Virus record (IMG/VR): IMGVR_UViG_3300005095_000141
Location: 1 to 60,538 of that record
Length of the DNA: 60,538 bases
Origin: a virus
Strand: one strand, 5' to 3'
A program made the position numbers and the translations under genes. How positions within the stretch are numbered: the first letter of the stretch is position 1; each line of letters opens with the position of its first letter. This document shows, piece after piece, positions 1 to 60,538 of this stretch. The notes under the pieces were generated by a model. It was given only the letters and a program-made list of their open reading frames with translations, was not told where the DNA came from and did not search any database.

Positions 1-91
1 TAAGAACTCGTATATTATACCGTTGTATGCCCGTCTTACCGGTGCTGGTAGCATACGTGTTGCTGGCTATGCTTTTCTTGATAGGTGGAGT
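1..91. repeat. Direct terminal repeat (circular overlap), left copy
   Basis: Bases 1-91 are identical to 60448-60538. The E2-like gene stays open across the join, so the two ends are the same place on a circular or permuted molecule. A 91-base overlap is typical of a k-mer assembler closing a circle, so it need not be a biological repeat. The true genome length would be 60,447 bp. Confidence 0.97.
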
Positions 92-1078
92 AATGCGTTG
101 ATTGAGAGGTTGTTGAGGGAGTATGATGTTGTGGCGTTTGCGTATGGGTATGGTAATGGCCCGGTTGTATGTAGTGTTGCTTCGCAGGTATATGGCGGCG
201 GCACCGGTGTTCCGGCTGTGCTTGTACGGTCGCCTAGTACTGAGGCTTCGAATGTAGTGGATGCACTTACCGGTTTCCGCGGTGTATGCTATGTTGATGA
301 TGACACGTTCTTCTGCAGTGTTACCGATAGCGATGGCCGTATGCATGTGTTTGGCAGTACGAATTTCTTCGAGTACCGGTCTAGCCGTGCCGCCGGCGTT
401 ATGGTGGTGCTTAGAAGGTATTTCGGCAGTGACAGGGTTGAGGACGCCTATGTGATGGAGACCCTGCGCGACCTGTTCGGCGCTGTGCAGAACACTGTTG
501 TTGCTGAGACCCGTCTTGTAAGCTACCGTGTTAACGCTGTGTTCGACGTTGTGCCGGGGCGTGAAAAGCTGTATATGGGCAGGTACTGTACCGACTATAC
601 CGGTGATGAGTGCCTGTTTGGACTGGAGCGCCTTGTTGATTTTACAGGTAACCGTGTAGTGCTTAGATATGATAGTAGGCGTGGCATGGAGTACGTTGTG
701 TTGCCGGAGCCGTTCCGTGTTACCGGTAAGCTTGTAGTGTACGCTGTTGGCAGTTCCAGTAGATTGAGCGATGAGGGCATACCGCTTAGCCTATACGGAG
801 ACCTGTGGATAAGGTTTGACAACCAGTTGTTCAGGCACCCGAACAACAGTGACAGCGGCTCGGTGTGTCTGGGAGGCTATGAGTTGCCACGCTATACTGG
901 TAGGGGTGATACTGTGGATGAGCTTAGACGTGTGCTTGACACCGCCGTGTCTATACTGAGCATGCCGACCAGTAATGCGTTTAACAGCTCGTTTATTGAC
1001 TATGTGCGTGAATACTGTGATACGCATAGGTGCGAGGAAGGAGTGTTCAGGATGGATGAGGCGTGGGGCACCGGGTAG
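1..1078 (+). CDS. Ubiquitin-conjugating (E2-like) enzyme with unknown N-terminal domain, C-terminal part
   Basis: Continuation of the gene that starts at 60269; joined length is 418 residues. About residues 285-400 match the E2 (UBC) fold. Beta strands are followed by HPN at residues 339-341, then seven residues, then Cys349 and Leu. This HPN-x7-C-L spacing, with Gly at the fifth spacer position, is the canonical E2 active-site signature. The Cys would carry the ubiquitin-like thioester and the HPN Asn would stabilise transfer. Helices follow (around DELRRVLDTAVSILSMP) as in E2 proteins. Residues of about 36-280 form a domain I cannot place. The gene lies between two E1-like genes and a ubiquitin-like gene, which supports the role. 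The assignment rests on motif and context only. Confidence 0.72.
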   Translation, partial: KNSYIIPLYARLTGAGSIRVAGYAFLDRWSNALIERLLREYDVVAFAYGYGNGPVVCSVASQVYGGGTGVPAVLVRSPSTEASNVVDALTGFRGVCYVDDDTFFCSVTDSDGRMHVFGSTNFFEYRSSRAAGVMVVLRRYFGSDRVEDAYVMETLRDLFGAVQNTVVAETRLVSYRVNAVFDVVPGREKLYMGRYCTDYTGDECLFGLERLVDFTGNRVVLRYDSRRGMEYVVLPEPFRVTGKLVVYAVGSSSRLSDEGIPLSLYGDLWIRFDNQLFRHPNNSDSGSVCLGGYELPRYTGRGDTVDELRRVLDTAVSILSMPTSNAFNSSFIDYVREYCDTHRCEEGVFRMDEAWGTG

Positions 1079-1126: not shown

Positions 1127-1333
1127 TTGCCTAAAGTAGTAATAGCCGGGAACGAGTACGAGGTAACAGGTACTGGCGAGGAGATAGTTAAGTTTATACT
1201 GGAGAAGGCGGCTGAGCTTGGCTGGGCAAGTGTACGCATATTTGCCGATGGGAAGGTTGTACCCGAGGGCGATGTACAGGCGCTTGAGCAGGCTTCGACG
1301 ATTGAGGTTGTTAAGGCGGACGTAGCGGCTTAG
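1127..1333 (+). CDS. Ubiquitin-like beta-grasp protein
   Basis: A 68-residue protein with the beta-beta-alpha-beta-beta order of ubiquitin/ThiS-like beta-grasp folds. Strands lie at about residues 2-13 (PKVVIAGNEYEV), a helix at 17-31 (EEIVKFILEKAAELGW), a strand at 33-42 (VRIFADGKVV), and a last strand at 57-64 (TIEVVKADVAA tail). The start is the TTG at 1127, chosen for the strong AGGAGGTG site 6 bases upstream; GTG at 1118 would add three residues. It directly follows the E2-like gene and the E1-like pair, so it is the natural modifier of the cascade. The C-terminus is Ala-Ala, not Gly-Gly, which is odd for a conjugated modifier. It could instead be a ThiS/MoaD-like carrier. Confidence 0.62.
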   Translation: MPKVVIAGNEYEVTGTGEEIVKFILEKAAELGWASVRIFADGKVVPEGDVQALEQASTIEVVKADVAA

Positions 1334-1763: not shown

Positions 1764-2003
1764 ATGAATTGGGTAGATGAGCTGTGTAAGATTAGGCGTA
1801 TAGCCCAGATGATGGTGGATGCGATAGACCGTGTAATGGATGATGATATGGATTGTTTGGATGAGCTACGGTATTTCCTGCACATGGCTGGTACCGATAT
1901 TGCGGATGCGATGAAGAGCGAGGGAGCGATACCGATTGCCGTGATGTTTGTGAACAGGAACTACGAGCACGTGATTAGATGTGTTGAGGGGCGTTTAGAG
2001 TAA
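1764..2003 (+). CDS. Hypothetical helical protein, 79 residues
   Basis: Not recognised. The protein is acidic and almost wholly helical in appearance, with an aspartate-rich centre (VMDDDMDCLDEL). ATG at 1764 follows GGGTGGT with a typical short spacer. It is the first gene after the TATA-like element at 1704, so it may head a transcript that continues into the RarA-like gene at 2046. Confidence 0.65.
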   Translation: MNWVDELCKIRRIAQMMVDAIDRVMDDDMDCLDELRYFLHMAGTDIADAMKSEGAIPIAVMFVNRNYEHVIRCVEGRLE

Positions 2004-2045
2004 TGTGTTTTTTACTGTGCATCGGGTTCGAGTGGGGTGTGTGTA

Positions 2046-2870
2046 ATGGTTAGTCTGGCCGAGTTTGTACCGGAGCTGAAAAAGGTTCGTACAGGCAGTA
2101 CTGGTGGTGAAGAGAAGCTGGCCAAGGGAAGCGAGATATGCTTGTGGTTGCCCGGTAAGAAGGGCTGGTTTAAGACGAAGTATTGCTACAAGAGGAGTGT
2201 TGTGACGAGCTGGTTGCAGAAGGCGATACGTCGTGGTGACTGGATACGGGCGGCTTGGGCTGGTCTGATACTGGGGCAGAATGAGCCGTGGTATTTCTGG
2301 CACCGTGCACGTATTATTGCTGTTGAGGACTGCCTTGGTAGCCCGGAGCTGTTCGGCCTTGTGTATGGTATGATGCGTGAATTCGAGGCGCTTACCGGTT
2401 ACCGTATGTCGAAGGAGGATAAGAGGCAGTTGTTGAAGCTGGTTGACCTGGTATGTGCCAGTACCGGTGATGCCGACCTGTGCGATGGGTTGCACGAGTA
2501 TGTGAATAATTTGACCGGGTTTAAGGGGCCGGTGAAGAACTGGGATGCGCTGAGACTGATTGTTGCCGTTAGTGTGTTGCTGGCTAGGGCGAAACATGAC
2601 CGTAGTTCTGATGCGTTCCTTGACCTGATAACGGAGATTGTGAACCGTTTGAGCGATGGACGTGTGGATGAGGATAACGAGGCTGTTAGGTGGTTGGAGG
2701 AGCTGAGTAGGCCGCCTGAGTATGTGTTTGATATGCATGTGCTTGGTAAGGCGGCCCGTGTTAGCTGGGTTGAGAGTAGCCGTACCGTGAATAATACTGA
2801 GGAGTACGAGGAGTTCCGTGGGCTGTGGGAGCGGCTGTACCGTGCTGTTGGTGCGGCTGATGATTACTAG
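2046..2870 (+). CDS. RarA/MgsA C-terminal-like protein without the ATPase domain
   Basis: 274 residues from ATG 2046 (GAGTGGGGTG upstream). About residues 50-115 resemble the helical C-terminal domain of RarA/WRNIP1 ATPases. The features are a conserved basic LQKAIRRGDW segment, an Ala-rich helix, a WHRARIIAVEDC segment (the family has RR-I-A-EDIG) and a later Leu/Ala helix (about 170-185). In RarA this part drives oligomerisation at forks and binds SSB; the AAA+ motor is absent here. It may be a clamp-loader-like or fork adaptor working with PCNA (8039) and PolB. The similarity is by pattern only, and the C-terminal third is not recognised. Confidence 0.45.
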   Translation: MVSLAEFVPELKKVRTGSTGGEEKLAKGSEICLWLPGKKGWFKTKYCYKRSVVTSWLQKAIRRGDWIRAAWAGLILGQNEPWYFWHRARIIAVEDCLGSPELFGLVYGMMREFEALTGYRMSKEDKRQLLKLVDLVCASTGDADLCDGLHEYVNNLTGFKGPVKNWDALRLIVAVSVLLARAKHDRSSDAFLDLITEIVNRLSDGRVDEDNEAVRWLEELSRPPEYVFDMHVLGKAARVSWVESSRTVNNTEEYEEFRGLWERLYRAVGAADDY

Positions 2871-3235
2871 GCTTGTTTTTCCCGTTGTGTGTATGTGTTT
2901 GTGGTTTGCCCCGGTACTGGGTGTTCTGGCCGGTGCTGGTGTTTTTTGTACGGTTTCTGTCTTTGTTATACTGTATATTGTACGGTATGGTATGGTATGG
3001 TTTCCGTATATTGTACGGTTGTTTCTGTTCTGTGCTGGTTTGCGATGTGTTTGTGATGGTGTTTTTTCGTGGGCCGGACGTTTTTTGTGGGGGTGTGTTT
3101 CTGGTGTTTGACTTAGGTGTTTTACCGGTTGGCTGTGTCTGTACTGGTTATTTGAGTGGTGTGGATAAGAAACTTTTTAAACCGTCACGAGAACATTTAC
3201 ACAACAAACAAAATGTAACGGGTAGGTGTATAGGA
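2871..3235 (+). other. Intergenic T/G-rich region with short direct repeats (possible control region)
   Basis: About 365 bases with no convincing gene. A frame stays open across it and joins the gene at 3236, but its translation is a low-complexity Cys/Phe/Val run unlike a protein. It contains two exact copies of GTATATTGTACGG (2973-2985 and 3006-3018) flanking GGTATGGTATGGTATGG. A third TTGTACGG lies at 2946-2953, and T-runs follow. A TATA-like box and small inverted repeat lie at its downstream end. It could be a regulatory or origin region; nothing proves either. Confidence 0.45.
3173..3182 (+). promoter_or_regulatory. Candidate archaeal TATA promoter
   Basis: CTTTTTAAAC preceded by AAGAAA, 53 bases before the TTG at 3236. 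Downstream is ACAAACAAAA, also present after the 1704 box. ACATTT and AAATGT form a 6-bp inverted repeat around it. This suggests a common promoter type for the two adjacent units. Confidence 0.45.
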
Positions 3236-3547
3236 TTGGGTAGGAGGAAGAGTAGGCGGGTTGTCCCCGCACCTGTACCGTACTGGAAAAGAATAGCTTT
3301 TTTAGAAGACCGTGCTACGCAGATAAGGTTTGTCCGGTTCAGCCTGATAAGGAAGGATGAGAAGGCTGGACGTTACCGCTACAGTGTACAGGTGTTCGAT
3401 GCCGATAATGGCAGGCCCGGACGGGTGTACGTTGTTAGTGACCGTAGGCTGGACAGGTTCGGCCTGTGGAACGCGGTGCAGTGCTATTTCAGATTCGGCG
3501 ATACCGAGATGGATGGGGTAAGGGTTGAGAAGGAGGTGTGGAAGTAA
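3236..3547 (+). CDS. Hypothetical basic protein, 103 residues
   Basis: Not recognised. TTG at 3236 is chosen because coding character begins here and GGTAGG lies just upstream. The N-terminus is very basic (MGRRKSRRV), followed by a Trp-Lys-Arg segment and a beta-rich core. A DNA- or RNA-binding role is plausible from charge alone. The TAA stop overlaps the ATG of the next gene (TAATG), so the two are translated as a unit. Confidence 0.55.
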   Translation: MGRRKSRRVVPAPVPYWKRIAFLEDRATQIRFVRFSLIRKDEKAGRYRYSVQVFDADNGRPGRVYVVSDRRLDRFGLWNAVQCYFRFGDTEMDGVRVEKEVWK

Positions 3548-4179
3548 TGATTGGGACTGAGGAGATTAGGTCGTCGGTTGAGAGCGGTGGGTACTGGAGT
3601 TTTACCGAGGATGAGCGCTGGGGTAGATGCCGTGAAGTAGTTGTTACCGAGTATGGGGAGGCGGTGTGTAAGGATACTGGTGAGGTGCTTGGGTATGCTT
3701 GGGATGGTAGTCCGTCTGCGGTTGGGGATGATACTGGTGTTGTGTTTAGTGATGTGAAGCCGATTAGCGGTAAGACTGTCTGGTATAGTGTGTCTGCTGA
3801 GCTGAAGAAGAAGGTTGGTGTTGCCGAGGAACTGCTTGGGGAGAGGCTGGACTGGTTTGTACCGGTGCTTGCAGAGTATGGTGGCTGGGCACGCCGTAAT
3901 AGTGGTGGGCTTGGCATGTTTGCCCGTGTTGTGTCTGGGAAGACGGTAGCGTTGTTCAGCCTGTACTACCGGTACCTTGAGGGTAAGATGTCGTACAGCG
4001 AGTTTAGGGAGAAGGCACGCAGTATCGGGTTCCTCTATATTGATAAGAGGTTGCTGTACAAGTTTAGGCTGTGGCATGACGGTGTCAGCCCCGATGATGC
4101 TGTATTGTTTGATAAGAAGGCCGGCGTGTATAGGCGTGTGTCTGAGATAAGGTTTGAGGACGTGTTTCCCCGTAAGTAG
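3547..4179 (+). CDS. Possible TFB-like (TFIIB-related) transcription factor
   Basis: 210 residues. About residues 28-50 contain a Cys, a hydrophobic strand and then GEAVCKDTGEVLG. This resembles the N-terminal ribbon of crenarchaeal TFB proteins, where GE-x-C-x-x-TGEVL is characteristic and the zinc site is degenerate. The C-terminal half is helical (SGKTVALFSLYYRYLEGK, then EFREKARSIGFLYIDKRLLYKFRLW-like turns). It could be a single cyclin-like repeat ending in a helix-turn-helix; full TFB has two repeats and about 300 residues. If correct, the protein could redirect host RNA polymerase to viral promoters such as the 19-bp motif. It could equally be an unrelated zinc-less regulator. Confidence 0.4.
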   Translation: MIGTEEIRSSVESGGYWSFTEDERWGRCREVVVTEYGEAVCKDTGEVLGYAWDGSPSAVGDDTGVVFSDVKPISGKTVWYSVSAELKKKVGVAEELLGERLDWFVPVLAEYGGWARRNSGGLGMFARVVSGKTVALFSLYYRYLEGKMSYSEFREKARSIGFLYIDKRLLYKFRLWHDGVSPDDAVLFDKKAGVYRRVSEIRFEDVFPRK

Positions 4180-4203
4180 AGTGTGTTTTTCCGGCTGTGT
4201 TTC

Positions 4204-4222
4204 TGTGCTTTGCTTATACTGG
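4204..4222 (+). promoter_or_regulatory. 19-bp viral boundary motif, copy 2
   Basis: TGTGCTTTGCTTATACTGG, 24 bases upstream of the ATG at 4247. A GGGTGGT ribosome-binding site follows it. It separates the TFB-like gene from the small-gene block. Confidence 0.7.
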
Positions 4223-4246
4223 ACTTGTACTGTACCGGGTGGTTGT

Positions 4247-4726
4247 ATGGTGGCTAGGTCTTCTGTACTGGAGTATGAGGGTATTGTGGGCGGCGGTGTT
4301 ATTAATGCTGTTTTTAGCCCTAGGAAGGGACGGTTTGCGAAGCCGTTCGATGCCGTGCCGAGCTATAACGGTGCTGTTGTGCTGAAGTACCGGTTGTTGC
4401 CGGGCAAGTATGTTGTTGTTAATGCCCGTGTTGAGGGTGACCCGTTTGTAAGTGGTGGTGCCATAGAGATTGTGTTTGAGGGTATGCGTGTACTGGGTGC
4501 TGGAGTGTTAGAGAATGGTGGCACCGTGTCTGTTGTGTATGATACTGGTGTGAAGCAGGTGTTTCTACGGCATATTGTAAGGGCGGCTACCCGTACCTAT
4601 AGTTCGCTGGAGCATGTGTTCCGCTGGCTGTGCAGACGATACGATACCGATAGCTGGCAGTGGCTGGTTGACCTTGTATTCGACAATACCGGTAAGAAGG
4701 TTGTTGTAGAGATTAGAGAGGAGTGA
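4247..4726 (+). CDS. Hypothetical protein, 159 residues
   Basis: Not recognised. ATG at 4247 follows GGGTGGT with a 4-base spacer. The protein begins with a beta-rich half containing several Val/Gly strands and ends with helices, including a Trp-rich segment near residues 125-140 (FRWLCRRYD, QWLVDLVFD). No catalytic pattern was seen. It is followed 6 bases later by the double zinc-finger gene. Confidence 0.65.
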   Translation: MVARSSVLEYEGIVGGGVINAVFSPRKGRFAKPFDAVPSYNGAVVLKYRLLPGKYVVVNARVEGDPFVSGGAIEIVFEGMRVLGAGVLENGGTVSVVYDTGVKQVFLRHIVRAATRTYSSLEHVFRWLCRRYDTDSWQWLVDLVFDNTGKKVVVEIREE

Positions 4727-4732
4727 CTTGTT

Positions 4733-5161
4733 ATGGATAAGAAGGACAGGGAGCGTATTAGGCGTGTACTGGGTGTTGAACCCGGTGATAGGAGCCGTGT
4801 GTTCACGCCTAGGGCTAGACAGTATGTGCTGAACAGGTTTGGCCGTGGTACGCCGCTTAGCCTTGACCGTGAAGGGATATGTGACCTGTGCGGCCGTAAG
4901 GATGTTGTGTTCCCGAATACCGGGGAGATACCGGTGTGCCGTAGGCATCTGGGCAAGTTTGTACGTATTGGGCAGTTGAAGGCGCTTGGACGTGTGCAGG
5001 TGGTTACGAATTTCTATGGGCGGATACGGTGTTTTTTCTGTGGCAGGGCTGATCCGGTGATGTATTTTGTTAGGCCGAGGAAGCTGTGTATTAGGTGTAT
5101 GTGGTATGTGCTTGGCAGGCAGAGCAAGAGGCTTAGTATTGACGGTACCCGTATAACGTAG
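4733..5161 (+). CDS. Double zinc-finger protein, likely nucleic-acid binding
   Basis: 142 residues with two metal-site candidates. The first is CDLCG at about residues 50-54 with CRRH some 19 residues later. The second is CFFCG at about 101-105 with CIRC at about 120-123. The N-terminus is strongly basic (KKDRERIRRVLG). Paired CxxC sites in a small basic protein suggest a DNA-binding or RNA-polymerase-binding regulator. The partner and target are unknown. Confidence 0.6.
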   Translation: MDKKDRERIRRVLGVEPGDRSRVFTPRARQYVLNRFGRGTPLSLDREGICDLCGRKDVVFPNTGEIPVCRRHLGKFVRIGQLKALGRVQVVTNFYGRIRCFFCGRADPVMYFVRPRKLCIRCMWYVLGRQSKRLSIDGTRIT

Positions 5162-5175
5162 CCGGGGTGGTGTGC

Positions 5176-5544
5176 TTGACTGATGCGTATAGTCTTGACA
5201 GGGATGATACTGAGCATTTGAAGAGTAAGGTTGCGGAGTACTGCGGTAAGCTGTGTAGTGGGCTGGTTGACCCGGCTGGTTTTGCCTTGTACCGGTGGTT
5301 TGCTGGTTTGCTTGGGACTAGGTGTGCCTGTATTGACGATGTTGTGCATGCCTATGTTGTTGTTTTGTGTGGCGATACCTATGTCTTTGTTGACAGTGAC
5401 TGTGATACCGATTTTGATGTTGCTGTGCGTTCTGCTATTGATAAGTGTGGGTGTGCGTATGAATGTTTTGCGGACGAGATGCGTTCTGCAGGCTTTATAC
5501 CGGTTCGTGTGCTGGATGTTGTGCGTGTAGATGCTGGGCGGTAG
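5176..5544 (+). CDS. Hypothetical Cys/Asp-rich protein, 122 residues
   Basis: Not recognised. TTG at 5176 fits a GGGGTGGT site with a 4-base spacer; GTG at 5167 is upstream. The sequence contains nine cysteines (several as CxC or CxxC-like pairs) and an aspartate-rich turn (VDSDCDTDFDV). It may bind metal. No family match is evident. Confidence 0.55.
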   Translation: MTDAYSLDRDDTEHLKSKVAEYCGKLCSGLVDPAGFALYRWFAGLLGTRCACIDDVVHAYVVVLCGDTYVFVDSDCDTDFDVAVRSAIDKCGCAYECFADEMRSAGFIPVRVLDVVRVDAGR

Positions 5545-5550
5545 GGTGTC

Positions 5551-5569
5551 TGTGCTTTGATTCTAACGG
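5551..5569 (+). promoter_or_regulatory. 19-bp viral boundary motif, copy 3
   Basis: TGTGCTTTGATTCTAACGG, ending 8 bases before the ATG at 5578. That spacing is too short for a normal archaeal TATA box at -26 if this ATG is used. Confidence 0.65.
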
Positions 5570-5577
5570 TGAATAAA

Positions 5578-5949
5578 ATGTCGGGTAAGAGCCTGTACCG
5601 TAGGGTTGCGGAGTATATTGTTCGTGATAGTTTTTTACAGGTTGGCCCTGAAAGCAGTATGAGAAAAGTAGCTGAGTGGCTTGAGAACGACGGCAAGGTC
5701 GTCCATACCGGTGCATGGGTGGCTGGAGAGATTGCTGTGCTGGTGCATGAGTGCGGTAAGAAGATGGGTGTTATTACCGAGGAGGGCGGAGAGGCTGTTA
5801 CTGTTACGTTTCCGAACAAGGGGTTAGCAGAGATACCGGTGTATGACAGTGACAGGCTGGTGGATTTTGTTGAGCGCATACTGATGGTTGTGAAGCTGTT
5901 CTATGGTGACGAGATGATTAAGTGTATTGAGAAGGAGGTGAACATGTGA
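5578..5949 (+). CDS. Hypothetical protein, 123 residues
   Basis: Not recognised. ATG at 5578. It has a helix-rich N-terminus (SLYRRVAEYIVRDSFL), a central strand pair with Gly-Gly, and a C-terminal amphipathic helix. Its stop overlaps the next ATG (TGATG), so it is coupled to the gene at 5949. Confidence 0.6.
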   Translation: MSGKSLYRRVAEYIVRDSFLQVGPESSMRKVAEWLENDGKVVHTGAWVAGEIAVLVHECGKKMGVITEEGGEAVTVTFPNKGLAEIPVYDSDRLVDFVERILMVVKLFYGDEMIKCIEKEVNM

Positions 5950-6263
5950 TGGCTGGTCTGTTCGTACCGGAGGATGTTGTGTTTGAAACTGTTGTTGTAG
6001 AGCACGGTGTTGCTGACGTGTACGGTGTTGTCCATACCGATAAGGGAGTGTTTAAGCTACATATTGAGGGGTGTGCGGACGACTTTGTGGCTGACAGGGA
6101 TTCGATAAAGGTGTTACTGGAGCTTGCGGCTGAGAGGGCTGAGACGGAGGTTGACGGCATATACAGGTACTGTGCCGGCAGGTTTGATGTGAAGATTACT
6201 ATGCTTGAAGGTGTTGATTGGCGTATAAGAATTGCTGAGTCTTGTAAGGGAGGTGGTAAGTGA
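5949..6263 (+). CDS. Hypothetical protein, 104 residues
   Basis: Not recognised. ATG at 5949 overlaps the preceding stop. The N-terminal half is beta-rich and acidic (VPEDVVFETVVVEHG), the middle is a helix, and the end is a basic strand. It overlaps the next gene by one base (TGATG), so it is part of one translational unit. Confidence 0.6.
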   Translation: MAGLFVPEDVVFETVVVEHGVADVYGVVHTDKGVFKLHIEGCADDFVADRDSIKVLLELAAERAETEVDGIYRYCAGRFDVKITMLEGVDWRIRIAESCKGGGK

Positions 6264-6463
6264 TGGGTAGGGCGTGTCCTGTGTGTGGCCGTGGAATGTT
6301 TAGCAGGAAGAAGCTGTTGGAGCATATTAAGAGGGAGCACCCGGCGTACTACCATAAGTGGATAGCGAATAGCCCGAGATACAGTGTCTGCCATTCACTA
6401 ATGATTGCGAAGAAGCGTGGCAGGGATGTTAAGATTCCGTCGCAGTGCAGGGGTGGTGCTTGA
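6263..6463 (+). CDS. C2H2 zinc-finger protein
   Basis: 66 residues with one classical finger: CPVCG at residues 5-9, then 12 residues, then His and His as HIKREH. This C-x2-C-x12-H-x4-H spacing is typical of single-finger DNA-binding proteins of archaeal viruses. A basic tail (KKRGRDVKIPSQCRGG) follows. It is likely a small transcription regulator; target unknown. Its stop overlaps the next ATG. Confidence 0.7.
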   Translation: MGRACPVCGRGMFSRKKLLEHIKREHPAYYHKWIANSPRYSVCHSLMIAKKRGRDVKIPSQCRGGA

Positions 6464-6639
6464 TGAAGAGTGTTATTGGAATTGTACCGTATGTGAAGCT
6501 TGAGGATATGCTTAGGAAGAGGGACTTCGAGGTTGCCAAGTACGTTGTCGAGGTGATGTGTAGGGGTAGTGTTAGTGTAGAAGGGGGCAATATTGTGTGT
6601 AAGGAGAAGGACAGGGTTGTTACGATAGAGCTGTACTAG
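6463..6639 (+). CDS. Hypothetical protein, 58 residues
   Basis: Not recognised. ATG at 6463 overlaps the stop of the C2H2 gene and follows GGGTGGT. It has a helix with many Lys/Arg/Glu (LEDMLRKRDFEVAKYVVEVM) and a C-terminal beta hairpin. Confidence 0.55.
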   Translation: MKSVIGIVPYVKLEDMLRKRDFEVAKYVVEVMCRGSVSVEGGNIVCKEKDRVVTIELY

Positions 6640-6651
6640 TGGTGGTTGTGG

Positions 6652-6894
6652 ATGAGTATTAGGGCTTACGATATACTGTCTAGGATTGACTTGGAGGGCG
6701 TTGGTAAGGCTAAGCAGGTTATTGACGCTATTAGGGAGTTGCTTAGGGCTAGCTGTGCCAGTGTAGAGGAGTTTGACAATGGCTTTGACTGCCTGATACC
6801 GGATGAGGAGACTGTGCTTGATAATGGCGATGTTGTTGTTGCCCGGTGGGTTGTACTGCGTGTAATGTATGGTGTTGAGAAGAAGGAGGTGTAG
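6652..6894 (+). CDS. Hypothetical protein, 80 residues
   Basis: Not recognised. ATG at 6652, with GGTGGT 6 bases upstream. The N-terminal half is helical (ILSRIDLEGVGKAKQVIDAIRELL), then an acidic loop and a C-terminal strand. No motif was seen. Confidence 0.55.
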   Translation: MSIRAYDILSRIDLEGVGKAKQVIDAIRELLRASCASVEEFDNGFDCLIPDEETVLDNGDVVVARWVVLRVMYGVEKKEV

Positions 6895-6898
6895 CTGT

Positions 6899-7219
6899 GT
6901 GTCTAAGACTAGGATTGTGTGCTGGGCAGGCGGTAGGGAGACCGTTGTTGATGATGCTGAGAACTGTATATGGGAGATTGCCAGGCTCGGTAACGGCAGG
7001 ATGTACGTTGTGGTAGGCGATGTGAAGCTACCGGTTGATGTTAACGAGGCTGTTAAGAAGATGATGGTTGAGAAGGGCTTGGTCATACAGTCCCGTATGT
7101 GGCTGGCGCACCGCTACAGCAATGATATTGAGGATGAGGAGTGGAGAAGCGAGGTGTTCAGCAGGATTATGAGGGCGCTTAGAGAGTACGAGATGATGTG
7201 GTTCGACGGGAAGAGATGA
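6899..7219 (+). CDS. Hypothetical protein, 106 residues
   Basis: Not recognised. GTG at 6899 follows AAGGAGGTG with a 6-base spacer, the best site in this block. The start is beta-rich (KTRIVCWAGGRET) and the end helical and charged (EEWRSEVFSRIMRALREYEMM). It overlaps the next gene by 4 bases (ATGA). Confidence 0.6.
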   Translation: MSKTRIVCWAGGRETVVDDAENCIWEIARLGNGRMYVVVGDVKLPVDVNEAVKKMMVEKGLVIQSRMWLAHRYSNDIEDEEWRSEVFSRIMRALREYEMMWFDGKR

Positions 7220-7632: not shown

Positions 7633-8018
7633 ACGTGGGTAAGGCTGTGTGTGTGTATAGGAGTTTGTATGAGATGTGGCGTTGTATAGGAGAGGAGCTG
7701 TGTGGTTTGTTTGCAGATGCGCTACGCAGTGTTGTACCGGATATTAAGTGTGCGGATGACAGTTATGGAGATATTATGCTGGATAGTGATGCTAGGAGTG
7801 CCTTTGTAATGCTTGAGCATAACGGAGAGATTGTCAGTATTGAGGATGTTATTAAGAAGGTGTTCCCCGAGCTTAGAGGCTATGAGGGGATAATGTGCGA
7901 CGTGTTCTTTACCGAGGAGGAGGCCGAGAAGGCTGTGCAGGTGCTTGAAAGGATTAGGAACGAGGAGTTCGACCGTGTTATTGCTAAGTGTGTTGAGCGT
8001 GCAGGGAATGTGCTTTGA
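7629..8018 (+). CDS. Hypothetical protein, 129 residues
   Basis: Not recognised. GTG at 7629 overlaps the upstream stop; GTG at 7626 is equally possible. It is helical at both ends, with an acidic loop around residues 45-55. The last residues lie inside a copy of the 19-bp motif (8009-8027), so the end of this gene and the control site for PCNA share bases. Confidence 0.6.
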   Translation: MNVGKAVCVYRSLYEMWRCIGEELCGLFADALRSVVPDIKCADDSYGDIMLDSDARSAFVMLEHNGEIVSIEDVIKKVFPELRGYEGIMCDVFFTEEEAEKAVQVLERIRNEEFDRVIAKCVERAGNVL

Positions 8019-8027
8019 ATAATACGG
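8009..8027 (+). promoter_or_regulatory. 19-bp viral boundary motif, copy 5 (upstream of PCNA)
   Basis: TGTGCTTTGAATAATACGG, overlapping the end of the previous gene and lying 11 bases before the PCNA ATG at 8039. GGAGGTG follows at once. Confidence 0.7.
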
Positions 8028-8038
8028 AGGTGTACTGG

Positions 8039-8779
8039 ATGCCTGGTCTGAGTATTGCAGGGGATGAGCTTAAGGGTTTGTTCAAGCTGTTAAAGGAGCT
8101 TGGTGTTAGTGTGGCTGAGTTCAGGTTTGAGAATGGCCGTGTGTCGCTGTTCGGTATGGATGCCAGTAGGGTGTCTGCTGTTAAGTGGTATGCTGACGGT
8201 GTTGACGGCGAGGGTGTCTTTGCGATACCGATTGACCGTGTTGTTAAGTGGCTTGGACGCGTAGGTAAGAGCGAGGTGTCAGTGGAGTTTAAGGAGAACC
8301 GTGCTGTATTCCGTAGCGGTAGGCGGAGACTGTATGTGCCGTACAGTGCATCTAGCAATGAGTTCGAGGATGTTGCGCTGGAGCAGATTATTGAGAGCGT
8401 TGATAATGCGGCGCTCAGGGTTACCGGTAAGGAGTATAAGCAGGTTGTTGACACAGTGGTTGACTACCCGGAGGCGACGTTCGAGTTCCATACCGGTACT
8501 GATGAGAGGCTTGGCATTGTTGCTGACCAGTACAAGGGATACGTGATTGTTAGGGGAGAGGACGAGAGCGGCGTTAAGGAGGAAGCTGTGTTTGGATTGG
8601 AAGAGATTAACGACGAGTTCAGCATTAAGTTTTCGCCGGAGTACCTGAAGATGGGTAAGTACGTTGTTGATGCATGCAGTGTTGTTGATATAAGGTTTGA
8701 CGAGAACAAGCCGCTGGTAATGGTAGGCAGTACCGTTGGAGATAACAAGCTGTTCTACGTGGTGGCGCCCCGTGCCTGA
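8039..8779 (+). CDS. pcn: PCNA-like DNA sliding clamp
   Basis: 246 residues, the usual length for archaeal PCNA. The DNA polymerase processivity clamp forms a trimeric ring. Family features seen are an N-terminal domain with a FRFENGRVSLFGMDASRV segment (the helix and D-x-S region), a central connector around residues 115-130, and a C-terminal KFSPEYLKMG helix. Strands DIRFDENKPLVM and FYVVAPRA close the fold; PCNA typically ends with a Y-x-(V/L)-APR(I/V) motif. It should serve the virus PolB (38536). It has its own 19-bp motif and ATG following GGAGGTG. Confidence 0.88.
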   Translation: MPGLSIAGDELKGLFKLLKELGVSVAEFRFENGRVSLFGMDASRVSAVKWYADGVDGEGVFAIPIDRVVKWLGRVGKSEVSVEFKENRAVFRSGRRRLYVPYSASSNEFEDVALEQIIESVDNAALRVTGKEYKQVVDTVVDYPEATFEFHTGTDERLGIVADQYKGYVIVRGEDESGVKEEAVFGLEEINDEFSIKFSPEYLKMGKYVVDACSVVDIRFDENKPLVMVGSTVGDNKLFYVVAPRA

Positions 8780-28369: not shown

Positions 28370-28426
28370 TGATATAGAGTAAGTAGAGTGTTTTTTAGAA
28401 TAAGCCTTATTATTTGCTTTTTGCAT

Positions 28427-28437
28427 ACTTTATATAG
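28427..28437 (+). promoter_or_regulatory. Candidate TATA promoter for the homing endonuclease
   Basis: TACTTTATATA lies 7 bases before the ATG at 28445, in a T-rich spacer after the capsid gene. The 5' untranslated part would be short or absent. Confidence 0.35.
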
Positions 28438-28444
28438 GGAACAA

Positions 28445-29253
28445 ATGTCACATGATAATAGATGGAATGCGTATGTTGCTGGATATTTTGATGGTGATGG
28501 TTCTGTTTGGATAGCACGTCATAAGTGTAAGCAGTGCAGGAGTGGTTATACGTATTTTTGGTGGTTGAGATTGTTTCTGTTGATAGGGATGTTCTTGACT
28601 TTATTGCTGGTGTTTATGGTGGCAAGGTTTATCCGAAGAGGAAAGTTGGTGCGTGGAAGTGGGTTGCATATAGTAATGTGGCGTATAATTTTTTGCTGAA
28701 CGTGTATAGGTATTTACAGATTAAGAGGAGACAGGCAGACCTAGCTATGATGTTTCAAGAAAGGATGATTAAGGGAAATAATTATATTTCTGATGATGAA
28801 ATGAAATGGCGTGAATGGGTTAGAAAAGAGATATCTGTGTTAAAGAAAATGTATGATGTTTTTGATTTTGCTGAGTTCGATACTGATGAAGAAGCTAGAC
28901 AATATATTGCTGGTTTGTTTGATGCGGAAGGATATGTAGGTGTATCTGAACGGAACAGAGGAAGTATGTATTTGCGAGTGGAAATTGGAAATAGATGTCT
29001 TAAATTACTTGAGTGGTTGAAAAGCATATATGGAGGGTCAATATACTGGAGCAGGAGGGCATACGTTTTTGAATTGGTATCGTTTGGTGCTAAGAGGTTG
29101 TTGGATGATGTTTTACCGTATTTGCATGTTAAGAAGGAGAGAGCTAAGATTGCACTTGAGTATCAGTCTATTACTAAGAAGGGGAGACAAGATTATGCTA
29201 TATTGAAAAGAAGAAAGAAGCTTGCTCGCTTATTGAAAGAACTTAATTATTAG
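28445..29253 (+). pseudogene. LAGLIDADG homing endonuclease, frameshifted
   Basis: Two LAGLIDADG motifs are visible: NAYVAGYFDGDGSV near the start and RQYIAGLFDAEGYVGV in the middle, as in monomeric two-domain enzymes. The reading frame shifts by -1 between about 28555 and 28570, in a TTTTTGGTGG stretch. The first frame gives YTYFWW; the second continues with EIVSVDRDVLDFIAGVYGG, which is what should follow. One missing base would restore a protein of about 269 residues. It is free-standing, immediately after the intact capsid gene, and has more A/T-rich codons than its neighbours, suggesting recent transfer. Sequencing error is the alternative to decay. Confidence 0.8.
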
Positions 29254-41985: not shown

Positions 41986-41996
41986 AGGTGGTCTGC

Positions 41997-42827
41997 ATGG
42001 AGCTTAAGATATTCATTCTGTGTGCAGGATATGGGAAGCGTGTTAGACCGGTTACTGGTGGTAAGCAGAAGTGTGCAGAGACCGTTAGGGTTGATTATGA
42101 GGAGTTGCCGATGTTTATGCATCAGATGAGAGTTATTAGTAAAGCTATGGATGACATTGCCCGTATTATTGGTGGGATTGAGTATGGCTTTTACCTAGTG
42201 GTGGGATACCGGGCGGACGATATTATTGATGCTATTGCAGAGTATGGTAGTGAAGTTGGACGAATACATGGTGTTCTGTATCAGCACGCTATTGACGGCA
42301 TAGGTGGTGCTTGGAACAGGATACGTGCGTTTCTGGACGGCGAGATGGTTGACGATGAAGATATGGTTGTTATTGTTAACTGCGACGACCATATAGGAGT
42401 TGATGATGCATACCGGTTTCTGCTTAGGACGATTCTGTTCTGGAGCGATACTAGTGTAGGGGCAGTGCTTGCCGCTAAGAATATTGTTGACGAATGCTCT
42501 GATGACGGTGACTGTAGAATAGTGTATGATGTTGAGAGATACGTGAATAAGACGATACTTGTGACTAGACGTGGGTGGAACGTGGCCGTTGACATTATAC
42601 CGAGGCTGGCAAGTGCCGATGAGCTACCGGATATTGACAGGTATGACCTGTACCTTGGAGTAGGATGGTATGCTGTGCGTAAACGATATGTTAACGCTGT
42701 ACGGTGCTGTGCCGAGTTTGAACCAGACGTGCAGGCGATTGTTAGTAGTAGGCTTGTACTGTTGAGCAGAGTTAATAAGTGGATAGACATGGGTAACCCG
42801 GAGATACTTGCTAAGTACCGTGCTTAG
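41997..42827 (+). CDS. Sugar-phosphate nucleotidylyltransferase
   Basis: 276 residues, ATG at 41997 after GAGGTGGT. The N-terminal MELKIFILCAGYGKRVRP matches the nucleotide-binding GxG-x-R loop of NTP transferases, with the later QHAIDGIGGAW and VIVNCDDHIG (the Asp that binds metal). It would activate a sugar-1-phosphate to an NDP-sugar. First gene of the sugar operon (42-50.3 kb); it is followed by the aminotransferase. The usual K-P-M segment is replaced (GKQKCAET). Confidence 0.72.
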   Translation: MELKIFILCAGYGKRVRPVTGGKQKCAETVRVDYEELPMFMHQMRVISKAMDDIARIIGGIEYGFYLVVGYRADDIIDAIAEYGSEVGRIHGVLYQHAIDGIGGAWNRIRAFLDGEMVDDEDMVVIVNCDDHIGVDDAYRFLLRTILFWSDTSVGAVLAAKNIVDECSDDGDCRIVYDVERYVNKTILVTRRGWNVAVDIIPRLASADELPDIDRYDLYLGVGWYAVRKRYVNAVRCCAEFEPDVQAIVSSRLVLLSRVNKWIDMGNPEILAKYRA

Positions 42828-42835
42828 GTGGTAGC

Positions 42836-43927
42836 ATGTATGTTCCTGCATGGAGACCGGTTATGAGTGCTGATAGGAAGAAAAGATTTCTTGCGTATGT
42901 AAAGGACATACTTGGCGGTACTGTGTTTAGGAATGGAAAATACGTTGCAGAGCTTGAAAAGACATTTGCGAAGAGACATGGATATAGGCATGGAATAGCT
43001 GTTAGTAGTGGAGGAGCAGGTATTGAGGCGTTACTGTATTATTACCGTGTGCGTGGATATAGGAACGTTGTTGTGCCTGCGGTTAGTTTTTCCGCCGACT
43101 ATACGATACCGAGCGAGCTTGGATACAATGTTGTTGTAGTTGATACGTTGAAGGATAAGCCGTTGATAGACCCGGATAAGGTACGGAAGGCAGTGCTGTA
43201 CTATGGCAGGAGCGTTGTGATAGCGATACCGTATTTTGGATATGTTGACCGTGAATGGGTTAAGGCACTGCTTGAGGTGAAAGAGGAGAACCCCGGCATG
43301 GAGATTATATGGGATACTGCGCACTGCTATGGTGTGGAGCTTGGCCGATACGGTATTGACCCCGCAGTTATAAGCATGTACACGACCAAGATAAGCAGTG
43401 GAGACAATGCGGGCATGGTTCTTACCGATAATATGATGCTTAGGGATAAGCTGTTACTGATACGCAGGTACGGTATTGACGGTGACGGCAGAACCGTGTA
43501 TGTTGGGAACAACTTTGGTCTTAGCGAGTTTAGTGCGGCGTTCATACTGGCTGGAATGGATGATGCTGAGAAAAGAATAGAGTCTGGACGTGCAGGATAT
43601 GATGTGATTAAGGACGAGTTGCCCGTGTACCCGGAGAACGCTACTGATGACTACAACTACTATGTGGTTGCAGTTCGCGTTAACGATAGGAAGGAGGCTG
43701 AGAAGGCGCTGATTGAGAACGGTATAGAGCCTTGGACACACTATGTACCGGATACTGTTGATAGGGAGAAGGTGCGTGTGCTTCTACGTGTATTTGTGTT
43801 TCCCGGCAAAACAGTTAATGCGCACAGGTTTGTAGAGCAGAACGTGTTTTTGTCCCCCGGCATACTGTATGAGTACCGTGTGCTTGAAAAAGTAGTGGAT
43901 ATTCTTAGACCGTATGCGAGGTGGTAG
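42836..43927 (+). CDS. DegT/DnrJ/EryC1-type sugar aminotransferase
   Basis: 363 residues, ATG at 42836 after GGTGGT. Family marks: GIAVSSGGAGIEALLY (the S-G-T-x-A-L loop), VVVPAVSFSADYTI (the P-x-x-T/S-F motif), WDTAHCYGVE (PLP-binding Asp160) and SMYTTKISSGDNAGMV with Lys185 as PLP Schiff base. It makes an amino-NDP-sugar from a keto-sugar. The stop overlaps the next gene. Confidence 0.85.
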   Translation: MYVPAWRPVMSADRKKRFLAYVKDILGGTVFRNGKYVAELEKTFAKRHGYRHGIAVSSGGAGIEALLYYYRVRGYRNVVVPAVSFSADYTIPSELGYNVVVVDTLKDKPLIDPDKVRKAVLYYGRSVVIAIPYFGYVDREWVKALLEVKEENPGMEIIWDTAHCYGVELGRYGIDPAVISMYTTKISSGDNAGMVLTDNMMLRDKLLLIRRYGIDGDGRTVYVGNNFGLSEFSAAFILAGMDDAEKRIESGRAGYDVIKDELPVYPENATDDYNYYVVAVRVNDRKEAEKALIENGIEPWTHYVPDTVDREKVRVLLRVFVFPGKTVNAHRFVEQNVFLSPGILYEYRVLEKVVDILRPYARW

Positions 43928-43929
43928 AT

Positions 43930-44898: not shown

Positions 44899-44899
44899 C

Positions 44900-45601: not shown

Positions 45602-45611
45602 GGCGGTGTGC

Positions 45612-48619: not shown

Positions 48620-48638
48620 ACGTGTATGGGTGGTCTGC

Positions 48639-55878: not shown

Positions 55879-56598
55879 ATGCGTGTTAAGAAAATACGTG
55901 CTAGTTCGTCTAAATGGAGTACTGGGTATAAGCCTGTAACTGAATGCCCGTATATGAAGATTGGTAAGCTGATAGTGCTTGTTGATTTTTCGTTGTTCGA
56001 GAAGATAAGCAGGCTTGCAGACGAGATTGATACCGAGTTCCTGATGTATGCTAAGTACAAGAAGCTTGGTGAAAATGAAATATACGTTGTTGATGACGTG
56101 TTTGTACCGAAACAGAAAGCTAGTGCTACGTTTGTAGAGGTAGAGGACAAGATACCGGAGAAGTTTGCTACTGAGACTGTTGTTATACATAAGCACCCGC
56201 CGAATATAGAGTCGTTCAGCAGAACAGATTATGAGTACATTAATGCGAATAACGATGTTAGTCTGCTGTGGTGTGATGGAGAGTTTACTGATGCTACTGT
56301 AAGGCGCAAGCTACCGTGTGGTAAGACTGCTATTGCGAGTGCAGATACTGTTAAGATGTATGTTGTTCTGCCTACTGGTAAGAAGGTTGATAAGCTGATA
56401 GATGGTATTAAGAAATGGGTTGAGGAGGCGAAGAAGAAGATAAAGCAGGAATATGTGCATGTGGCGAATGGCAAGACTATTCTTGACTATAGCGATTATG
56501 GTGGGTGGAGGACTAGCCTGTACGACATACCGGATTATGATGATGAGATAGAGGAGCTGTATAATGGAGAGATTAGTAGGATGATGCGTAGAAGGTGA
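55879..56598 (+). CDS. JAMM/MPN metalloprotease (deubiquitinase-like)
   Basis: 239 residues, ATG at 55879 after GGTAGG. The zinc site is read as Glu53 in EFLMYAKY, then His104-x-His106, seven residues, Ser114, two residues, Asp117 (HKHPPNIESFSRTD). This exactly matches HxH-x7-S-x2-D of active JAMM isopeptidases. These cleave ubiquitin-like tags (Rpn11, AMSH, archaeal HvJAMM). Central strands (EIYVVDDVFVPKQ) fit the MPN fold; the C-terminal third is helical and basic. Phage tail protein K also has a JAB domain, but this gene is far from the tail block and lies in the cassette with E1-, E2- and ubiquitin-like genes. Confidence 0.85.
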   Translation: MRVKKIRASSSKWSTGYKPVTECPYMKIGKLIVLVDFSLFEKISRLADEIDTEFLMYAKYKKLGENEIYVVDDVFVPKQKASATFVEVEDKIPEKFATETVVIHKHPPNIESFSRTDYEYINANNDVSLLWCDGEFTDATVRRKLPCGKTAIASADTVKMYVVLPTGKKVDKLIDGIKKWVEEAKKKIKQEYVHVANGKTILDYSDYGGWRTSLYDIPDYDDEIEELYNGEISRMMRRR

Positions 56599-58511: not shown

Positions 58512-58523
58512 GCTGGTTTGTGC

Positions 58524-58542
58524 TGTGCTTTGTTTTTACTGG
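58524..58542 (+). promoter_or_regulatory. 19-bp viral boundary motif, copy 14 (upstream of E1)
   Basis: TGTGCTTTGTTTTTACTGG, 28 bases before the GTG at 58571. Confidence 0.7.
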
Positions 58543-58570
58543 TATTTACTGGGTTTGTGGGTGGTGTGTT

Positions 58571-59416
58571 GTGTCTGGTCGGGATTTGCTGTGGTTTCTT
58601 AGGCGGGCGGCGGCTGGAGGGTCTGTTTCTGGCAGTACTGGTTCTGTGGCTGGTGATTCTAGGTCTGCTGGTGCAGACGATGCTGGCGTTGCTGTTAATA
58701 CTGGTACTGGTGGTTCTGGTGCTGGGTTTGTGTTTCCTGGTGTGCGTGCTGTTGTGTTTGGGTTGGGTGGTGTTGGTTCGTGGCTTGTGTTTCTTGCTGG
58801 TGGTTACCGGTTGTTTGGTGGTTTTGTATTGGTTGATGGTGATGTGTGGGAGCCGGTGAATAGTAATAGGTTGTGGTTGTACCCGTTTGGGGGGTTGTTG
58901 GGCCGGTGTGTTGCTGGTGGCCGGTGTTTTAAGGCTGGTTTGGCTGGTGGGTGGCTTGTGCGGCGTGCTGGCTATACTGGTGGCCGGGTAAGGGTTGTTC
59001 CCCGGTATGTGCGTGGGGTGGATGATGTGCGTGCTGTTTTGTCCCGTTACTGTACCGGTACCGGCGGTGACGGTGCTGGTTATCGTTACCCGTGTGTTGT
59101 GTTTGACTGTGTTGATTCGCCGCGTGTGTCTGCTGATGTTCGGTATGCTGGTGTTGGTGCTGGGTTGCCTGTTGTTAGTCTTCATTTTGACGGTGGTAGT
59201 GTTACTGGTGAGGTGTTTTTGCCGGGGTCTGGGGCTGGTGTTTTTAGTGTTGGTGGTGCTCGTGGTGGGTATGTGGCTGGTAGTGTTGCGGGGTCTAGTG
59301 TGTTGGCGGCTTGGCTTGGCGTGGTGCTTGCTTACCGTGTTCTTACTGGGGCTGTTGGTGGCTATGTGTTGGTTGGTGGTGATACTGGGTCTGGGCTTCG
59401 TGTTTTTGGCTTGTAG
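58571..59416 (+). CDS. E1/ThiF-family ubiquitin-like activating enzyme
   Basis: 281 residues, GTG at 58571 after GGGTGGTG. A short Trp helix (RDLLWFLRR) and a Gly/Ser/Ala linker (to about residue 52) precede the Rossmann core. The core has GLGGVG (64-69), VDGDVWEP (Asp89, Asp91), NSNRLW (Arg100, the family R finger), GRCFKAG (Lys121), and VVFDCVDSP (Asp179, Asp182). These are E1/MoeB/ThiF adenylation features: ATP-Mg binding and activation of a C-terminal carboxylate. There is no Cys after residue 180, so no obvious thioester site in the usual position. The last third continues with strand LPVVSLHFDGG as in E1 proteins. Codons are extremely G/T-rich. Confidence 0.78.
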   Translation: MSGRDLLWFLRRAAAGGSVSGSTGSVAGDSRSAGADDAGVAVNTGTGGSGAGFVFPGVRAVVFGLGGVGSWLVFLAGGYRLFGGFVLVDGDVWEPVNSNRLWLYPFGGLLGRCVAGGRCFKAGLAGGWLVRRAGYTGGRVRVVPRYVRGVDDVRAVLSRYCTGTGGDGAGYRYPCVVFDCVDSPRVSADVRYAGVGAGLPVVSLHFDGGSVTGEVFLPGSGAGVFSVGGARGGYVAGSVAGSSVLAAWLGVVLAYRVLTGAVGGYVLVGGDTGSGLRVFGL

Positions 59417-59417
59417 T

Positions 59418-59436
59418 TGTGCTTTGTTTTTACCGG
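59418..59436 (+). promoter_or_regulatory. 19-bp viral boundary motif, copy 15 (upstream of the second E1-like gene)
   Basis: TGTGCTTTGTTTTTACCGG, immediately after the E1 stop and 61 bases before the chosen ATG at 59498. A (TCTGTAnTG)-like T/G repeat lies between. Confidence 0.68.
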
Positions 59437-59497
59437 TATCTGTACTGTATCTGTAACTGTACTGTATTGTATCTGTATTGGTATGGTATGTATTGGT

Positions 59498-60262
59498 ATG
59501 TGTTTGGGGGTGTTGGTTGGGTTGTTTGTGCGGAGTGTGGATGTTGGTGGTGTTAGGCGGGCTGGTTCTGGGCGTGTTCCTGGTCGTTACCGGGTTGGTG
59601 ATTGGGGTGTTGAGTGGTTGTTTGTTCTTGATGGTGCTGGTGGGTTCGGTGTTGTTGCCGGGTTTTTGCTTGGTTTGGGGGGTTCTGGTGTTGTTGTTGT
59701 TGGTAGTGGTGGTGTGCCGGGTGTTGTTGCGCCTTGTTATGGTGTGCCGGGGGGTGCTGGGCTTGGTGGTTGGCCGTCTTGTTTTGCTGGTTTGGGCGGT
59801 GTTGTTTCTTACCGGGTTGTTGCTGAGTGGTTGTCTTCCGGTGTTGTGTTTCAGGGTGTTGGGGATGTGTTTGTTGTTGATGTTGGGCTTGGGTTGCCGG
59901 TTTCTTCTTGGCTTTACCGGGGCGGTGTGGGGCTTGTCTTTACCGGTGTTGATGGGGGTGTGTATGTGTTTGTTGCTAGGAGGCTGTATCTTTCTGATTT
60001 GCGCAGGATAGGCCGTGTGTCTGGCGGTGGTGATGGATGGTTTGTGCGTGGGGAGGAGTGCGGTGCGCTGTGCTCTGGTTTAAACGTACCCGGTGCCCTT
60101 ACCGGTGATGAGGGCTTGTTCGGGGGGTATGGCTTGGCTGGATGGGTTAGCAATGTGTTGCTGGAGGGTATTGTTACTGTGCTGAGGCGTACTAGTGATA
60201 GGGCGGTGATGTACCGGCTTGACACTGGTTCTGGCGGTGTTGAGAGACGTGTTTGGAGGTGA
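59498..60262 (+). CDS. Second, degenerate E1/ThiF-like protein
   Basis: 254 residues; start uncertain (ATG 59483 or 59498, or GTG 59528). A Rossmann-like core starts with WLFVLDGAGGFG (GxGGxG, 46-51). The next strand VVVVGSGGVPG lacks the acidic Asp, and no SNR motif follows (VAPCYGVP instead). VFVVDVGLGLPVSS (about 124-137) and GVGLVFTGVDGGVYVF match the later E1 strands. Cys188 and Cys192 lie in an EECGALCSG segment, before a Gly-rich helix LAGWVSNVLLEGIV like the end of E1 domains. It could be the inactive half of a heterodimeric E1, supplying a Cys or docking site. Paralogy with 58571 is inferred from strand order. Confidence 0.5.
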   Translation: MCLGVLVGLFVRSVDVGGVRRAGSGRVPGRYRVGDWGVEWLFVLDGAGGFGVVAGFLLGLGGSGVVVVGSGGVPGVVAPCYGVPGGAGLGGWPSCFAGLGGVVSYRVVAEWLSSGVVFQGVGDVFVVDVGLGLPVSSWLYRGGVGLVFTGVDGGVYVFVARRLYLSDLRRIGRVSGGGDGWFVRGEECGALCSGLNVPGALTGDEGLFGGYGLAGWVSNVLLEGIVTVLRRTSDRAVMYRLDTGSGGVERRVWR

Positions 60263-60268
60263 CCGTGT

Positions 60269-60538
60269 ATGAGCTGGAGTGTTGAGAGCTGGTATGCATG
60301 GTTTTCCCGCCGGGATACCGGTGCTGGGCGTGGTACTGGTGGTGATGCGGGGTCTGGGCCTGTTAGGACGCTGAGCTTTAGGCGTGCTGGTGCGGACGTT
60401 GTGTTTGACCTGTACGGTGATGTTAACGACAGGTTTGTGCGTGCTGTTAAGAACTCGTATATTATACCGTTGTATGCCCGTCTTACCGGTGCTGGTAGCA
60501 TACGTGTTGCTGGCTATGCTTTTCTTGATAGGTGGAGT
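60269..60538 (+). CDS. E2-like conjugating enzyme, N-terminal 90 residues (continues at the start of the window)
   Basis: This is the 5' part of a 418-residue protein cut by the contig ends. The ATG at 60269 lies 6 bases after the stop of the second E1-like gene and follows a GGAGGTGA ribosome-binding site. The first residues form a Trp-rich helix (SWYAWFSRR). A Gly/Thr/Ser-rich linker follows (about residues 15-35), then the beginning of a folded domain I do not recognise. A similar helix-plus-linker start is seen in the E1 at 58571. The E2 fold itself is in the C-terminal half (see 1..1078). The frame is unambiguous because the 91-base overlap preserves it. Confidence 0.85.
   Translation, partial: MSWSVESWYAWFSRRDTGAGRGTGGDAGSGPVRTLSFRRAGADVVFDLYGDVNDRFVRAVKNSYIIPLYARLTGAGSIRVAGYAFLDRWS
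60448..60538. repeat. Direct terminal repeat (circular overlap), right copy
   Basis: Identical to bases 1-91 and in the same reading frame of the gene that starts at 60269. One of the two copies should be removed to obtain the circular genome. Confidence 0.97.

Follow-up and report, generated by a model that had tools for sequence, protein, structure and literature searches.

A viral cassette of E1-, E2- and JAB-type genes with a ubiquitin-like protein that ends in Ala-Ala

The locus and its genome setting

The window analysed here is the whole stretch of 60,538 nt that makes up the virus record IMGVR_UViG_3300005095_000141 (IMG/VR). Because its two ends carry an exact direct terminal repeat of 91 bp (1-91 = 60448-60538), the contig is best read as a circular (or circularly permuted) molecule of 60,447 bp. 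The genome contains the genes of a head-tail virus, including those for terminase, portal, capsid and tape measure, and also encodes an archaeal/eukaryotic-type primase large subunit. The product of positions 8015-8779 weakly resembles sliding clamps of the archaeal PCNA3 type (E = 0.002), and the best E-value among the matches listed for the terminase (7e-27) belongs to Halogranum tailed virus 1, an archaeal virus. These sequence comparisons point to an archaeon as the likely host, probably one with a heat-loving lifestyle. Directly 3' of the capsid gene, two overlapping frames (28388-29253) carry the LAGLIDADG-like motif YVAGYFDGDGS and are likely to represent a homing endonuclease, possibly frameshifted. 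A separate run of genes at 41988-50314 reads as sugar-nucleotide, aminotransferase, epimerase, methyltransferase and glycosyltransferase functions, as if the virion or the virus DNA were glycosylated.

Four genes for a ubiquitin-like protein (Ubl), an E1-like enzyme, an E2-like enzyme and a JAB-type metalloprotease were all recovered in this genome by profiles built without the window. Together with two neighbouring genes, they are arranged as follows.

1..1078, + strand: E2-like enzyme, C-terminal part, with the motif HPNNSDSGSVCLG (leave-out HMM; PDB matches of the family profile)
1127..1333, + strand: putative Ubl modifier of 68 aa, beta-grasp, C-terminus KADVAA (AlphaFold, PDB matches, leave-out HMM)
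55879..56598, + strand: JAB/JAMM metalloprotease with the motif HKHPPNIESFSRTD (leave-out HMM; alignment with phage JABs)
58161..58511, + strand: small protein ending LGGD, outside the conserved cassette (no family match)
58520..59416, + strand: E1-like (ThiF/MoeB-type) adenylating enzyme (Pfam ThiF, leave-out HMM, motifs)
59417..60262, + strand: Gly/Val-rich protein between E1 and E2, no family match (family-library searches)
60269..60538, + strand: E2-like enzyme, N-terminal part (91-bp repeat; frame continuous over the join)

The Ubl gene opens with a TTG at 1127, about 8 nt downstream of AGGAGGT, and closes with a stop codon at 1331-1333. Its product is (M)PKVVIAGNEYEVTGTGEEIVKFILEKAAELGWASVRIFADGKVVPEGDVQALEQASTIEVVKADVAA, with EVVKADVAA as the last residues and GG nowhere in the protein; an alternative in-frame GTG at 1118 would make it slightly longer at the start and leave the C-terminus unchanged. 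The original prediction had placed at these coordinates a ubiquitin-like protein ending in VAA without Gly-Gly, and both the C-terminus and the assignment hold. The AlphaFold model (pLDDT 89) has the beta-grasp order strand-strand-helix-strand-(short helix)-strand, and nearly all of its best 50 Foldseek matches in the PDB are SUMO, ubiquitin, ISG15 or related ubiquitin-like domains, the top ones with a probability of about 0.99. Raf RBDs and other small beta-grasp domains reach the same VIA-align range (Z about 6), so that the fold appears clear from the model and the nearest kin does not. Searches of Pfam, PHROGs and PADLOC gave no match for the protein. A family profile built without the window and without the archaeal relative ranks it first among 666 ORFs (E = 2.8e-5; next ORF, 1.2), and the match extends into the C-terminal motif. 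A typical Ubl bears a C-terminal Gly after processing, usually as Gly-Gly; the VAA end lowers the standing of this protein as a typical Ubl, not as one that works like one.

The contig cut falls within the E2 gene, which precedes the Ubl gene and runs from 60269 over the join to 1078 as a continuous frame of 418 aa. The leave-out profile of its family also ranks the window protein first of the 666 ORFs, although at E = 0.0013 this is the weakest of the four cassette matches. Searched against the PDB, the family profile finds only ubiquitin-conjugating enzymes among its best 60 matches, UBE2C being the best (7.8e-5), and five of 18 members match Pfam UQ_con (best 5.5e-5). The active-site Cys and the Gly of Cys-x-Gly are invariant in the 18 aligned members. 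The window protein has both the HPN triad and the active-site Cys of the E2 (UBC) family, with the spacing of eukaryotic E2 active sites. Its AlphaFold model reached a pLDDT of 55 in this region and was left out of the fold searches.

The E1-like protein, the true start of which may be an internal GTG at 58571, matches Pfam ThiF at E = 3.7e-4, below the curated cut-off, and ranks first of 666 ORFs with the leave-out profile (E = 3e-8). The motifs GxGGxG, DxDxxE, NxNR and DxxD of the ThiF/MoeB/E1 superfamily are invariant in seven aligned members, including that of the window. The family also matches Pfam ThiF, and the structures found with its profile are those of SUMO E1, NEDD8 E1, ThiF, MoeB, Cap2 and BubCD. 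The alignment contains no conserved Cys beyond that of the DCxD motif, and hence nothing corresponding to the catalytic Cys domain of canonical E1 enzymes.

The JAB gene comes after the terminase gene and 2 kb upstream of the E1 gene. Its product carries the JAMM signature E...HxHPx6SxxD, ranks first of 666 ORFs with the leave-out profile (E = 3.7e-42) and is likely to be a tag-removing or tag-maturing enzyme; two JABs of the family match Pfam Prok-JAB just under its cut-off. The Gly/Val-rich protein encoded at 59417-60262 was considered as a second E1 and rejected, its similarity to E1 being compositional: 39 of 500 shuffled sequences score as high. The product of 58161-58511 reads as a ribbon-helix-helix N-terminus followed by a Gly/Ser-rich middle and the LGGD end.

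Related cassettes and their C-terminal motif

Direct IMG/VR searches with the window Ubl, E2, TerL and capsid returned no relatives, since the window proteins are too divergent, and no credible match came from tblastn searches of isolated phages with the Ubl, E2, E1 and JAB. Relatives were instead reached through the DNA pattern HPN....G..C.G in IMG/VR, which led to phage loci with E2, E1 and JAB side by side; alignments of the E1 and JAB proteins found in this way then identified many more IMG/VR loci and some prokaryote genome assemblies. Matches from the genome scan were mostly without a cassette, resembled ordinary ThiF/MoeB neighbourhoods and were left out of the tally. After removal of duplicates, the set comprises 42 cassettes including that of the window, two of which (L028 and L049) show no JAB in the stretch examined. 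The 41 related cassettes are mostly on virus contigs, with four in genome assemblies. The kinship of the window Ubl with that of L014 is visible by profiles only, a pairwise BLAST between the two being not significant. The E2 motif is HPN in the window and its nearer relatives, and HYH....DCWG-like in a large T4-like branch.

Two sets of relatives may be described individually. The cassette of an Acidilobaceae archaeon (L119/L120) lies on a 387-kb contig of a crenarchaeal assembly and in a second assembly, with a gene for a HerA-like helicase (DUF87) nearby; at about 4683-6901 its Ubl reads on in frame into the E1 at ADVAA|STW. In the phage-classed L002 (IMGVR_UViG_2521172724_000002, 1946-4765), the genes for E1, Ubl (ending LVAG), E2 and JAB sit close together beside a DnaJ-like gene, an arrangement that resembles a bacterial Bil-type operon on a prophage.

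Aligned, the Ubls of the family end in (D/N/E)-x-A-(G/A/K). Among the 42 cassettes the terminal dipeptide is AG in 23, AA in nine and AK in six, with GA, VG, QG and RG once each and GG in none. The last residue of the motif is accordingly Gly in 26, Ala in 10 and Lys in six, and 38 cassettes have Ala in the position before. The protein ends right at the Gly in 16 members and right at the Ala in seven, whereas 17 continue beyond the dipeptide, either with short tails such as AG|NVNP (L050), AG|LV and AA|M or as fusions to E1 (ADVAA|STWIRETYC... in L119/L120; YNEAG|VEY... in L108). The five residues ADVAA are common to the window Ubl and its Acidilobaceae homologue. One subgroup (L030, L035, L116, L024, L029 and L032) ends in EAK or AAK, some with tails. 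A homologous virus with a GG end, which would have marked the window copy as divergent, was looked for, and none was found. The expectation that Gly-Gly is the norm does not apply in this family, where the usual ends are Ala-Gly and Ala-Ala.

The distribution of the Ala state was followed on an IQ-TREE tree of E1 plus JAB, with the terminal trait not included, which replaced an E1 tree with a badly trimmed window E1. Four changes are needed on this tree, of which at least three, to or from Ala, are unavoidable given its well-supported branches. Long branches lead to the window and to the Acidilobaceae cassette, and the pairing of these two as sisters (81/63) is insecure. Because the tree forces repeated changes while the catalytic motifs of E1, E2 and JAB stay, terminal Ala is a recurrent and tolerated state that is exchanged with Gly, normal for the family rather than a defect.

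Conjugation through alanine and its alternatives

The virus probably encodes a ubiquitin-like pathway in which the product of 1127-1333 serves as the modifier and is activated and conjugated through Ala. In this pathway, the E1 (58520) would use ATP to adenylate the C-terminal carboxylate of the Ubl. The E2 (60269 over the join to 1078) would then accept the Ubl as a thioester on the Cys of HPN....GSVCLG and pass it to a target amine, and the JAB (55879) would remove it; where the Ubl of a relative continues into a C-terminal tail or an E1, the JAB would also mature the Ubl. Adenylation, thioester formation, conjugation and removal are steps that we infer from the protein families concerned. 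The activated residue would be either the last encoded Ala or, after a one-residue trim, the Ala that precedes it, and the window tag would be Ala-terminated at either site.

The original prediction had left three options for a modifier with such an end, namely conjugation through Ala, a role as an adenylated carrier only, or another protein as the modifier, with the Gly-Gly-Asp-ended product of 58161 as the candidate. The first is favoured by Gly or Ala at the last position in 36 of 42 members, by the changes of Ala on the tree, by ADVAA standing before a fused E1 and by a precedent in CBASS. In CBASS with Cap2/Cap3, CD-NTases end in Gly or Ala, and the Ala-ended protein of E. cloacae was conjugated in experiments (PMC10097602); a Gly-to-Ala change still forms the thioester (PMC10097602; PMC10449767). 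Ubiquitin with a terminal Ala can also be activated, but its removal is poor. Several points count against conjugation through Ala as the explanation. The window E2 gave the weakest of the four cassette matches and a model of low pLDDT, the handover from E1 to E2 is hard to explain because no E1 Cys beyond DCxD is conserved, the gene between E1 and E2 is without an explanation, and the AK ends of six relatives are a poor fit to conjugation at that exact last position.

Trimming would be a special case of the same explanation, in which the JAB removes the last Gly, Ala or Lys and conjugation throughout the family proceeds through the nearly invariant Ala that precedes it. The constancy of this next-to-last Ala, the six members with Lys last and the extra residues or fusions in 17 of the 42 are all consistent with such a step. 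As a family-wide rule it is nonetheless unlikely, since an exact stop at Gly in sixteen members and at Ala in seven is not what one would expect of a residue that is always removed, and the last motif position lines up by eye with the terminal Gly of ThiS.

The second option, in which the Ubl would be adenylated as a sulfur or acyl carrier and deliver sulfur in the manner of ThiS or MoaD, with no conjugation, is less probable still, at roughly the level of an outside chance. A single-domain ThiF-type E1 without a conserved catalytic Cys would suit a carrier, and bacterial genomes contain ThiS-like proteins with a VGGG end that are weak matches of the Ubl HMM. However, the Ubl is accompanied across the cassettes by an E2 with an invariant active-site Cys and by a JAMM protease, neither of which is needed for sulfur transfer to thiamin or molybdopterin, and the activated end of ThiS and MoaD is Gly-Gly. 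A carrier-only role is disfavoured on these grounds.

It is very unlikely that the Ala end reflects a loss of function, leaving a degenerate Ubl that binds only and is not conjugated. The window E1 is indeed very divergent and sits on a long branch, but it keeps its catalytic residues, as do the window E2 and JAB; Ala ends occur in several lineages with intact E1, E2 and JAB motifs, and the window shares ADVAA with the Acidilobaceae homologue. The third option is hardly credible: the product of 58161 does end in ...FELGGD, as had been read, so that loss of the Asp would expose Gly-Gly, but it matches no ubiquitin-like family, and the recurring modifier gene of the relatives encodes the beta-grasp protein, of which the window has its own copy.

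Relation to known systems and possible role

Conjugation through Ala invites comparison with type II CBASS, which also combines E1, E2 and JAB activities and whose modifier has a variable penultimate residue followed by one terminal Gly or Ala, Ala-ended forms being conjugated (PMC10097602). There, however, an enzyme serves as the modifier, E1 and E2 form one fused protein and the setting is bacterial defence, whereas the cassette described here has a Ubl as modifier, separate genes and a mainly viral distribution. Membership in CBASS was rejected: E1 and E2 are separate genes in the window (no Cap2 fusion), and PADLOC gave no match for the four cassette proteins. The recurring modifier gene of the cassette is the Ubl, as opposed to the CD-NTase in CBASS.

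Iyer et al. (2006) described a bacterial operon, type 6d, that consists of Ubl, E2, E1, JAB and a helical protein, with a highly conserved C-terminal Gly in the Ubl and an E2 without His at the usual place; other Ubl families in the same study lack the terminal Gly (PMC1779556). The window cassette has the same four activities, but the E2s of the window and its nearer relatives have HPN, the Ubl ends in A-(G/A/K), the E1s are short and the setting is viral. The type 6d operons are, we presume, the PRTRC cassettes; membership in these was rejected, as an NCBIfam scan gave no PRTRC match for Ubl, E1, E2 or JAB, and a distant ParB gene of the window scored far below the cut-off of PRTRC_parB.

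Bil and Bub are described as bacterial cellular antiviral operons. The E1-type domain of the cassette is related to BubCD, and L002, with its LVAG-ended Ubl, has separate Ubl, E1, E2 and JAB genes as well; this cassette family, by contrast, is found mainly on viral contigs, and those neighbours that can be named are replication or packaging genes. With eukaryotic enzymes, the likeness lies in the HPN....G..CL and N.DS motifs of the E2 (UBE2C, UBE2N) and in the nucleotide-binding core of the E1 (SUMO E1, UBA5), whereas the viral E2s form the C-terminal part of larger proteins and the viral E1s are mostly about 200-300 aa with no Cys domain. ThiS, MoaD and the SAMP-type archaeal Ubls are likewise small beta-grasp proteins with ThiF-type activation, but their end is GG. 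At least one survey of archaeal Ubls took a conserved GG or CC end as a criterion (PMC2948915), and this would miss the present Ubl family. With no GG end and no Pfam, PHROGs or PADLOC match for the modifier, the family is easy to overlook, and no description of it was found in the open-licence literature.

The genomic neighbours provide a lead to function in one branch of the family. In all 15 loci of the T4-like branch (L037-L061, L114, L115), a sliding clamp gene, behind that of the clamp loader, lies just upstream of the Ubl gene or about one gene before it; this neighbourhood has one shared origin, not 15 independent ones, and is a lead only. A further branch has a gene for an SbcD-type nuclease after the cassette, as shown for L025. 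Since the T4-like cassettes adjoin the clamp gene, the viral clamp or replisome could be the target there, as a counterpart of PCNA ubiquitination and SUMOylation. The wider proposal, which includes this possible target and is tentative and rather doubtful as a whole, is that these cassettes belong to a broad, unannotated class of virus ubiquitin pathways in which the tag is conjugated through Ala (A-A or trimmed) and not through Gly-Gly.

Virus contigs from many samples carry the cassette, as does an archaeal assembly, and it offers a testable case of Ala as the activated residue of a beta-grasp modifier. Virus-borne E2s with a eukaryotic HPN motif, in what is probably an archaeal virus, also bear on the origin of the eukaryotic ubiquitin enzymes. 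A further question is why proteins should be tagged by a virus at all, the sliding clamp being the first candidate in one branch.
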